Source of the DNA: Tannerella sp.
GTDB taxonomy: Bacteria > Bacteroidota > Bacteroidia > Bacteroidales > Tannerellaceae
Direction of reading: 5' to 3'
Assembly (NCBI GenBank): GCA_031288935.1
Contig: JAITQL010000049.1
Location: forward strand, 1 to 11,464
Length of the DNA: 11,464 bases
Shown here: positions 7,666 to 11,397 of the stretch, piece by piece
How the letters are laid out: every line of letters starts with the position of its first letter
Position numbering within the stretch: the first letter of the stretch is position 1
Position numbers and translations under genes: made by a program
The notes under the pieces: model-generated
Seen by the model: the letters and a program-made list of their open reading frames with translations, nothing else
What the model was told of the DNA's origin: nothing
Databases searched by the model: none

Positions 7666-8292
7666 TCAAATCTGCCCGTGCTCGACGAGCAGGACGATGC
7701 GTTCGGTCATGGCGTCTTTGCCTTTCGGGTCGTATTCGCTTTTCAGACTGGCGCCGAAAAGCCCGGCAAACATGTTCCAGAATCCGGCGCGAAAACGCCC
7801 CAGATAGGCCGTCAGCAGGTGGTAGCTTGTCTGGTTGCATTCGCGGTCTACGAGCTTGATGAGCAGCTTTCCCTGCGAAAGGGTCAGTTTCTTGAGTTCC
7901 GGCTTGTATTCCCTGAAGAGTTCCTTTTCCATCCGTTTCAGGTGGTCTTCGCGCGCCCGGTCGTCGGGGAGGGTTTCGATGTATTCGTAGGTTTCAATCA
8001 GCATGGCATAGACCATTTTTGCGTAGGGAAGCGTCCTTTTTACGTCGCGCACCAGTTTCGTGTACTGCCGGCGTTCCTTTTCGCTTTTGAACCCGAGTTC
8101 GGGAAAAACGATTACTTCCTGGAGCTGAACCACTGCCACCGTGTCGCTTCCGTCCAGGTATCCGGCGTGATACCCTTCGGGAATCCGCATCTTCATGCCG
8201 GGTTTTTGCGTCTGCGTTTCCGTCTGCGCAAATCCGTACAGACCCGTGCAAAAGCAAATCAGGCAGGCGGAGAGGATGCGACCGGTGTTCAT
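7666..8292 (-). CDS. DUF4294-type exported protein of unknown function
   Basis: The 208-residue protein starts with a signal peptide, MNTGRILSACLICFCTGLYG, ending FAQ (cleavage likely near residue 23). The mature part has a short beta-like stretch (about 50-66) and then a highly charged helical region with YTKLVRDVKRTLPYAKMVYA (about 81-100), ETYEYIETLPD and LIKLVDRECNQTSYHLLTAY. I recognise this pattern from memory as the Bacteroidetes-specific DUF4294 family, for which no function is established. No catalytic motif is evident; Lys, Glu and Tyr dominate. It begins 3 bases after the cyclophilin stop, so the two are almost certainly co-transcribed and perhaps coupled. The signal peptides of both end TGL(Y/H)GFAQ. 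A periplasmic role with the cyclophilin is inference. Confidence 0.8.
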   Translation of the reverse strand: MNTGRILSACLICFCTGLYGFAQTETQTQKPGMKMRIPEGYHAGYLDGSDTVAVVQLQEVIVFPELGFKSEKERRQYTKLVRDVKRTLPYAKMVYAMLIETYEYIETLPDDRAREDHLKRMEKELFREYKPELKKLTLSQGKLLIKLVDRECNQTSYHLLTAYLGRFRAGFWNMFAGLFGASLKSEYDPKGKDAMTERIVLLVEHGQI

Positions 8293-9977: not shown

Positions 9978-10044
9978 GATTTGCAGTCCGCCGGATCATC
10001 TTCAGGCCAGACTTCATGAGCAATCGGACAAACTTTCAATTCCT

Positions 10045-10052
10045 CCGGCCGG
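10045..10052. promoter_or_regulatory. CCGGCCGG palindrome upstream of the hemerythrin promoter
   Basis: CCGGCCGG lies where the -33 element would be expected, 19-26 bases upstream of the -7 element at 10072. CAATC (10021-10025) and GATTG (10053-10057) form a wider pair nearby. No TTTG is present at the right spacing. It may be an activator site; eight-base GC palindromes can also arise by chance. Confidence 0.3.
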
Positions 10053-10071
10053 GATTGTCGTAAAAAGAAAC

Positions 10072-10098
10072 TACCTTTGCGCCGCTCAACAAAAGGAG
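10072..10098 (+). promoter_or_regulatory. -7 element and strong ribosome binding site of the hemerythrin-luxR operon
   Basis: TACCTTTG (10072-10079) is a perfect Bacteroidetes -7 element. AAGGAG (10093-10098) lies 7 bases before the ATG at 10106, a strong Shine-Dalgarno that is unusual beside the other genes here and fixes the start. The missing -33 word suggests dependence on an activator. Confidence 0.65.
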
Positions 10099-10105
10099 AC
10101 CGCAT

Positions 10106-10795
10106 ATGTATTATTTGGGACAGTATAAGGCTACGGACAGGATGAGTGACCTGATTTGCGAAAACTACGCAATGCTGCTTGTCATGAGCCGGTTTGGTAT
10201 CGCGCTGGGTTTTGGCGAACAGACGATCGGCGAGGTGTGCCGCAAAAACGACGTGGACGAAAAGACGTTTCTGACAGTGGTGAACATGCTGATCAACGAG
10301 GACCGGCCGGACGGGGACGACCGGTCGATCTCCGTCAAGTCGCTGGTCGCGTACCTGCGCAACTCGCACCTGTACTTTCTGGATTTCCGCCTGCCGGCCA
10401 TCCGCGTCAAGCTGATGGAGGCGGTCGATGCCGGACACAACGACGCGGGGCGGGCGATCATGCGATACTACGACGAATACGTATCCGAGGTGCGCCGCCA
10501 CATGCACTACGAGGAGGAGACGGTGTTTCCGTATGTCGACCTGCTGCTCAACGCGCAGAAACGCCACTACCGCATCGACATCTTCAGCCGGCAGCATGAC
10601 CGCGTGGAGGAGCGTCTGTCGGAACTGAAGGACATCATCATCAAATACTTTCCGGCGAAGAGCAGCAACGAACTGAACAGCGTACTGTTCGACATCTTCG
10701 TTTGCACGCAGGATCTGGCGACGCACAACCGGCTGGAAAACGACCTGTTTGTACCCGTAATCAAGGCGCTCGAACAAAAAACGGATGCCCGATGA
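10106..10795 (+). CDS. Hemerythrin-domain protein with ScdA-like N-terminus (RIC/YtfE-related)
   Basis: The 229-residue protein has an N-terminal helical domain (about 11-65) resembling the ScdA_N domain of the RIC/YtfE/ScdA iron-cluster repair proteins. The usual FCCGG cysteines are replaced by ALGFGE (33-38); Cys45 in IGEVCRKN remains. The C-terminal part is a four-helix hemerythrin domain. His88 is in YLRNSHLYFLDFRLP, His132 and His134 are in RRHMHYEEETVFPY with Glu138, His164 is in SRQHDRVEERL with Glu168, and His207 is in ATHNRLENDLF with Glu211. These repeated HxxxE pairs are the expected ligands of a non-haem diiron site. Known relatives bind O2 or NO, or deliver iron to damaged clusters. 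The overlap with a LuxR-type regulator gene suggests it senses or buffers such a signal for that regulator. Direct function is not established. Confidence 0.85.
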   Translation: MYYLGQYKATDRMSDLICENYAMLLVMSRFGIALGFGEQTIGEVCRKNDVDEKTFLTVVNMLINEDRPDGDDRSISVKSLVAYLRNSHLYFLDFRLPAIRVKLMEAVDAGHNDAGRAIMRYYDEYVSEVRRHMHYEEETVFPYVDLLLNAQKRHYRIDIFSRQHDRVEERLSELKDIIIKYFPAKSSNELNSVLFDIFVCTQDLATHNRLENDLFVPVIKALEQKTDAR

Positions 10796-11397
10796 GCAAC
10801 CTGCGAACGAAGATAGCCATCGCCGATCCCTCGCTGATTGTCCGCAGCGGCCTGATTGCCGTACTGAAGCGGCTTCCCGTCTTGAACGTCAACCTCTTTG
10901 AAATTGCCGATCCGTCGCACCTGACCGTCGAGCTGTGCAAGTGGAAACCCGACATGCTGATCGTCAATCCGCTCTTCCCGTACGGCCTCTCCCTGCAAAA
11001 CCTGAAAAATGAAACGGGGTGCAAAGACATGAAATACGTCGCCCTGCAAAACACGCTCATGGATCCGTCCGTACTGAAAGCCTACGACGAAACGATTTCC
11101 ATCTACGACACGGCGGAACAGATCCGGGACAAACTCGCCTCCCTGTGCAGCTCCACCCTCGAACCGGCGGAAAACGGCAAGCAGGAACTCAGCCTTCGCG
11201 AGAAGGAAATCATTGTCTGCGTCGTCAAGGGCATGACCAACAAGCAGACGGCGGAATATCTCTGCCTCTCCACGCACACGGTCATCACGCACCGGCGCAA
11301 CATCGCCAACAAGCTGAAGATACACAGTCCGGCCGGTCTGACAATCTATGCCATTGTCAACAAGCTGGTCGAGCTGAACGAGGTGAAAGACCTCTGA
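10792..11397 (+). CDS. LuxR-type regulator with degenerate receiver domain
   Basis: The start is ATG 10792, overlapping the hemerythrin stop as ATGA; the reading frame is open upstream to 10702 but that would overlap the neighbour by 94 bases. The product is 201 residues. Residues 5-120 align in pattern with a response-regulator receiver (KIAIADPSLIVRSGLIAVL, then KPDMLIVNPLFP). The phospho-acceptor position is Asn59, only one acidic residue (Asp12) remains of the usual pair, and the conserved Thr/Ser and Lys of strands 4 and 5 are not evident. Phosphorylation is therefore unlikely. Residues 133-195 are a canonical LuxR/NarL helix-turn-helix: LSLREKEI, VVKGMTNKQTAEYL, LSTHTVITHRRNIANKL. The N-terminal domain may instead respond to the hemerythrin partner or another ligand. 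Confidence 0.88.
   Translation: MSNLRTKIAIADPSLIVRSGLIAVLKRLPVLNVNLFEIADPSHLTVELCKWKPDMLIVNPLFPYGLSLQNLKNETGCKDMKYVALQNTLMDPSVLKAYDETISIYDTAEQIRDKLASLCSSTLEPAENGKQELSLREKEIIVCVVKGMTNKQTAEYLCLSTHTVITHRRNIANKLKIHSPAGLTIYAIVNKLVELNEVKDL

Follow-up and report, generated by a model that had tools for sequence, protein, structure and literature searches.

The system treated here is closest to two described ones, PG1236-CdhR (PG1237) in Porphyromonas gingivalis and BT0519-BT0520 in Bacteroides thetaiotaomicron. They form the same operon, in which a hemerythrin-domain protein is encoded together with a DNA-binding protein resembling a response regulator, and are fused in Prevotella intermedia (PMC10434189). 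According to the available parts of that 2023 study, both pairs were up-regulated under iron limitation (6.9-7.3-fold and 16-20-fold). The mechanism of the CdhR operon was called unclear there, iron binding by CdhR was yet to be shown and knowledge of iron-response mechanisms in Bacteroidales was described as scarce. CdhR was reported to be an activator of hmu, and cdhR to be down under microaerophilic conditions (PMC10101095). The available text of PMC10434189 and PMC10101095 holds no operator, no sensor role of the hemerythrin and no remark on a missing phospho-Asp. A literature search, which covered few subscription journals, likewise yielded, in the available text, neither an operator for the pair nor a paper in which the hemerythrin serves as sensor of CdhR.

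The window (the whole stretch of DNA analyzed, 11,464 nucleotides) ends in a pair of the same order, with a LuxR/NarL-type gene immediately behind a hemerythrin gene. It is likened to the CdhR module by gene order and description; iron-limitation induction and hmu activation were published for the relatives. The pair and its iron response are already in print and are not new. By computation we established the anatomy and conservation of the pair, its fusions, a dyad with its promoter geometry, the tie of this dyad to hemerythrin genomes and the linkage to feoAB. What this analysis adds is the NarL-like dyad at an activator-like distance from the -7 box, enriched only in hemerythrin genomes. 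We consider it probable that the pair is a kinase-free iron-starvation switch of the CdhR type, in which a hemerythrin iron sensor works with a NarL-type activator on these dyads.

The gene pair and its two proteins

As read from the sequence, two + strand genes close the window and share an ATGA; the pair and its overlap are as the initial annotation had placed them, at 10106-10795 and 10792-11397. We take TAnnTTTG to be the Bacteroidales -7 box consensus, and hence TACCTTTG to be the candidate -7 box of the pair. The features are as follows:

10072..10079, + strand: TACCTTTG, putative -7 box of the pair (Bacteroidales type, TAnnTTTG); TA(T/C)CTTTG is aligned upstream in most close relatives
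10106..10795, + strand: hemerythrin-domain protein, 229 aa, proposed sensor (PF01814, E 5.9e-13; four-helix bundle model; YtfE/RIC fold matches)
10367..10738, + strand: whole span of the six predicted diiron ligand codons (YtfE equivalents, invariant in 40/40 aligned sequences)
10367-10369, 10499-10501 and 10511-10513, + strand: ligand codons H88, H132 and E136 (alignment with YtfE ligands)
10595-10597, 10724-10726 and 10736-10738, + strand: ligand codons H164, H207 and E211 (alignment with YtfE ligands)
10792..10795, + strand: ATGA stop/start overlap (sequence)
10792..11397, + strand: 201-aa regulator of NarL/LuxR type; pseudo-receiver at residues 6-120, GerE HTH at residues 132-187 (GerE, E 2.1e-14; (beta-alpha)5 model; receiver matches)
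10966..10968, + strand: Asn59 codon, phospho-acceptor position (sequence; directly after strand 3 in the model)

Elsewhere in the window, positions 351-2677 hold a row of genes encoding a TetR-type regulator, a ketoacyl-ACP synthase III-like protein and a short-chain reductase, and a DUF4294 protein (7666-8292, - strand; E 2.1e-61) adjoins a cyclophilin-type isomerase.

The hemerythrin-like protein is distant kin of RIC/YtfE. It matched TIGR03652 (NCBIfam) with an E of 4.2e-16 and 59.4 bits, the cut-off being 204.7, and it matched YtfE in the PDB with an E of about 1e-3. The model (mean pLDDT 85.0) combines a helical N-terminal part with a bundle of four helices (77-107, 113-148, 157-181, 188-228). 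All eight Foldseek matches of this model at E <= 0.001 were YtfE, and S. aureus RIC/ScdA was among the next ranks. The iron ligands of YtfE are H84, H204, H129, H160, E133 and E208 (PMC9268430). H88, H132, E136, H164, H207 and E211 are the equivalents of YtfE H84, H129, E133, H160, H204 and E208, so that the bundle carries the six diiron ligands of a RIC. The diiron His/Glu pattern read earlier from the letters holds for these six residues, which are identical in 40/40 aligned sequences, while H134, also named there, varies. The DfCCgG motif in the N-terminal domain, given as typical of most bacterial RICs (PMC9268430), is absent from the window hemerythrin, whose translation reads LGFGEQT at that place and contains no CC anywhere. 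Filing the protein as a RIC was rejected because the CC motif is missing and the score lies far under the TIGR03652 cut-off.

The N-terminal domain of the regulator has a receiver fold according to the (beta-alpha)5 model and receiver matches. With this fold and the GerE HTH the protein displays two features of the NarL/FixJ family; the third, a phospho-acceptor Asp with an acidic pair, is replaced by Asn59 and Pro13. Asn59 is found in the window and most relatives, Asp at this position occurs in 8/45 close and 3/41 wider regulators, and residue 13 is acidic in none of the aligned regulators. Sequence and model thus bear out the earlier description of a LuxR HTH fused to a receiver-like domain with Asn59 for the phospho-Asp.

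Conservation, fusions and a metal-less branch

The main sample comprised 61 genomes, the window's own and 60 relatives of its genus and order. Hemerythrin matches were detected in 54/61 and regulator matches in 59/61, many of the latter to the HTH only. There were 88 hemerythrin matches in total: 59 had a LuxR-type match on the same strand <=400 nt downstream, 16 shared one open frame with an HTH and for 13 no partner was found. At E <= 3.7e-19, which leaves out the 11 weakest of the 88 (10 without a partner and one fusion), 74/77 matches had a LuxR protein as their partner, either paired or fused. The three exceptions were G055:C133, where the regulator lies upstream, and G052 and G045, where the best regulator match is on another contig. 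In an even sample of the order, 107/148 genomes had a hemerythrin match. The initial annotation had named confinement to close relatives as an outcome that would speak against its reading; the pair is conserved beyond them and its order is nearly always fixed. Five Bacteroides and one Parabacteroides, named relatives that stand in for the B. thetaiotaomicron and P. gingivalis genomes, have hemerythrins 49-57% identical to that of the window. Parabacteroides goldsteinii (L299, G064:C84:149907-153313) carries two metal-type hemerythrin genes about 2 kb apart on the same strand, and a third, 26%-identical one elsewhere.

For the alignments, 57 hemerythrins and 41 regulators (window included) were taken from chosen loci, a subset of the 88 matches. 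The six ligand positions read HHEHHE in 38 of the 57 hemerythrins and NRDEHR or similar in 19. The latter form one clade (local support 0.999, midpoint rooting) of 15 fusions and four separate genes, L081-L099 (e.g., L082:853-1731 and L096:803-1501), in which five of six ligands are lost (N-R-D-E/D-H-R). Metal-type and metal-less hemerythrins occur together in G029, G031 and G022. The metal-less pair L096 comes after a xylose-isomerase-like TIM-barrel gene. A GGAAG-N3-CTTCC repeat before metal-less genes was dropped as an operator because, by eye, it is located within the upstream coding frame.

Receiver-less fusions occur in both the metal-type and the metal-less branch. In the fused L073 (318 aa), the hemerythrin spans residues 82-220 and GerE 250-305. 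In the fused L082 and L088, GerE lies directly behind the bundle; their metal-less bundles are weak or absent in Pfam and clear by phmmer. The bundle and GerE are so close in these fusions that no space is left for a receiver. Since the metal-type L073 is fused as well, fusion arose at least two times. These natural fusions support the functional link between the two proteins that had been proposed from the window alone, and we argue from them that the hemerythrin is the input domain for the HTH. The metal-less sister clade provides a natural control for the role of the metal.

A candidate operator dyad and the genes behind it

NarL sites have a 7-2-7 arrangement, which the candidate dyad resembles. 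TMCCYA-N4-TRGGKA dyads (<=3 mismatches to TACCTA-N4-TAGGTA) were found before 18/57 hemerythrin genes, compared with a mean of 8.7 in shuffled sequence. The strict dyad ATMCCYA-N4-TRGGKAT (ATMCCYANNNNTRGGKAT) occurred 70 times in the 61 genomes versus nine for the reversed control, and nine times in 5/6 of the named genomes versus two for the control. In the five named Bacteroides, a profile dyad lies 61-71 nt before the hemerythrin gene with scores of 16.1 to 23.9; the operator profile was trained on strict-pattern sites, so the scores carry no independent weight.

The 172 oriented dyad matches, in which each site is counted in both directions and many loci are related, were followed within <=100 nt by 84 TAnnTTTG boxes. 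For 41 of these boxes the start lies 20-22 nt beyond the 20-bp dyad, and for six it lies 31 nt beyond, one helical turn further; shuffled sequence gave 10.75 boxes in all. Spacing that is fixed and in helical phase, directly upstream of the -7 box, would be what an activator needs, and this promoter position leads us to argue that activation occurs in the low-iron state. No dyad preceded the window's own pair or the pairs of 8/10 nearest relatives, and autoregulation of the pair is thus not universal. An imperfect inverted repeat at 10038-10057 was rejected as operator of the window's pair, its spacing being wrong and its score no better than that of shuffled sequence. At the threshold used, no dyad was detected before the two metal-type hemerythrin genes of P. 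goldsteinii.

The 56 regions fetched hold 59 strict sites, a few of them inside open frames. The downstream genes, assigned only in part, include 12 in a FeoAB cluster (representative: FeoA, FeoB_N, Gate, FeoB_C), 12 in a TonB-receptor-like cluster (representative: Plug) and one ferric-reductase-like gene. The window's own genome carries a dyad before FeoAB, the 13th such, at G000:C198:2999-3016 with the box at 31 nt, and P. goldsteinii has one before FeoAB too. The feoAB genes lie beside the pair in 12/35 loci, divergent in nine and in line in three, many loci extending just 1.5 kb; they also adjoin it, in line, in the Fur-less G161 (L312). B. faecis has a further dyad about 10.8 kb upstream of its pair, where a TetR gene and then an ABC transporter follow. 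The order and content of these genes suggest that they correspond to the BT0507-09 region of B. thetaiotaomicron, reported to be induced 51- to 675-fold by iron limitation (PMC10434189). Two families without a Pfam match were seen behind dyads, each in three genomes: a secreted-looking family of about 440 aa directly behind them (L147:2753-4090, L172, L181) and a 244-aa family 53-59 nt behind (L184:2606-3337, L162, L185).

These targets bear on the signal. The initial annotation had taken redox or NO as the main signal, with a diiron centre that senses O2 or NO and controls stress defence. Hemerythrin and RIC/YtfE relatives are described as reacting with O2 and NO, and the reported decrease of cdhR under microaerophilic conditions (PMC10101095) would fit. 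However, the dyad targets are iron-uptake genes, and in relatives the operon was reported to answer to iron limitation (PMC10434189); together with the feoAB neighbourhood, this points to iron starvation. Because targets and published induction concern iron, we lowered the redox/NO reading to a rival, which we regard as unlikely. O2 or NO may possibly act as a modifier of the iron centre.

The dyad could instead belong to Fur or another regulator, the pair being merely one iron-regulated target, as B. fragilis feoAB was reported to be Fur-dependent (PMC6460266) and the window's own pair is without a dyad. Across the 148 genomes, 84 dyads were found in the 107 with hemerythrin and nine in the 41 without (control 24 and 7). 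At least one dyad was present in 52/107 hemerythrin-positive versus 8/41 negative genomes (Fisher p 9e-4), and 55 of the 107 had no strict site. Fur-family genes were detected in 135/148 genomes. The nine genomes with hemerythrin and no Fur match held 10 dyads, and the 37 with Fur and no hemerythrin held nine (p 0.0013); the control pattern gave two and six, respectively. In the Fur-less G137, FeoAB is preceded by a dyad with the box 21 nt away, and the pair of this genome keeps all six ligands. In the Fur-less G125, one of four sites has its box at 20-22 nt and none lies before feoAB.

The half-site letters also differ between regulator types of the same genus. An A at position 3 occurred in 30/40 half-sites with the window-type regulator (20 sites of 10 genomes) versus 6/54 with the other type (27 sites of 13 genomes); the p of 2e-10 is too small because the genomes are related. 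This test leaves out G002 (both types), G008 (only the metal-less type found), hemerythrin-less genomes and other genera. A single recognition-helix residue behind the change, sought by eye, is not claimed because of exceptions such as L056. Three genomes of the same genus, G010 (90% complete), G015 (99%) and G032 (60%), contain one dyad each (L314, G010:C120; L313, G015:C157; L176, G032:C104), before FeoAB in G010 and G032; the dyads of L313 and L314 also have a well-placed -7 box. None of the three genomes yielded a hemerythrin match or a regulator match of full length; dyads without a detected pair could be explained by pair loss, assembly gaps or another binder. Such sites favour a binder other than the paired regulator, but the dyads track hemerythrin and not Fur, their spacing is activator-like, their symmetry is NarL-like and their half-sites vary with regulator type. 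Taken together, control of the dyad by Fur or another protein is rather improbable.

The proposed switch and its relation to known systems

The iron links of the pair lead us to argue that the input of the proposed switch is iron supply, and a diiron site would be a natural occupancy sensor. When iron is plentiful, the hemerythrin-like protein would hold its diiron centre. Loss of this iron, possibly helped by O2 or NO, would change the interaction of the hemerythrin with its partner, and the regulator, its receiver being without the usual phospho-Asp, would then act as a NarL-type activator. Its binding sites would be the ATMCCYA-N4-TRGGKAT dyads, whose centres lie about 31 or 41 nt before the start of the -7 box, and binding would turn on feoAB and TonB-dependent receptors, in many relatives along with the regulator's own operon. 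We infer that this regulator is the dyad binder and contacts the hemerythrin, that the signal is iron occupancy, and which way the control runs.

The hemerythrin might also be an iron store or repair protein that is only co-expressed with the regulator and does not interact with it. RIC proteins are described as donating iron (PMC9268430), and contact between hemerythrin and regulator is a matter of deduction; we hold this explanation to be very unlikely, as fusions with the HTH arose at least two times and the metal-less branch retains its link to the HTH. Least probable is that a kinase elsewhere phosphorylates the regulator, in an ordinary phosphorelay or otherwise. In favour speak the full receiver fold, the mention of CdhR in the available parts of P. 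gingivalis tyrosine kinase papers and Asp59 in 8/45 close regulators (3/41 wider); because of the 8/45 we weighed this reading slightly up. Against it stand Asn59 in the window and most relatives, the never acidic residue 13 and the fused forms without a receiver.

FBXL5 is a eukaryotic hemerythrin iron sensor whose output is protein degradation, not transcription. The kinase-free iron switch proposed here could be its transcriptional counterpart: the chances seem to us evenly balanced that Bacteroidales use, beside or instead of Fur, a hemerythrin iron sensor and a phosphorylation-free NarL-type activator, with an operator specific to them and a regulon of feoAB, TonB receptors and, often, the pair itself, and that the sister branch with N-R-D-(E/D)-H-R works without metal. 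If true, a hemerythrin-to-transcription route would be added to the known uses of the fold. Bacteroidales dominate the human gut, and the dyad, the target promoters and the sensor candidate make the question of their iron response directly testable.

RitR of Streptococcus pneumoniae, with Asn at the phospho-site, senses redox as an orphan regulator and belongs to a different DNA-binding class. Like the window regulator, it is described as evolved from a two-component response regulator and as concerned with iron and redox (PMC5965902), whereas in the window system the HTH is of NarL type and the regulator has a hemerythrin as its partner. SsoR of Shewanella oneidensis is reported as an atypical, phosphorylation-independent response regulator in iron homeostasis, as proposed here, but no hemerythrin partner gene is named for it in the available part of PMC12442407. 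The iron-centre repair proteins RIC/YtfE/ScdA share the fold and the six diiron ligands with the window hemerythrin, which differs in lacking DfCCgG, in scoring far below the family cut-off and in being tied to a transcription regulator. In Bhr-DGC of Vibrio cholerae, a hemerythrin fold likewise serves as signal input, and the output is cyclic-di-GMP, not transcription (PMC10101095).
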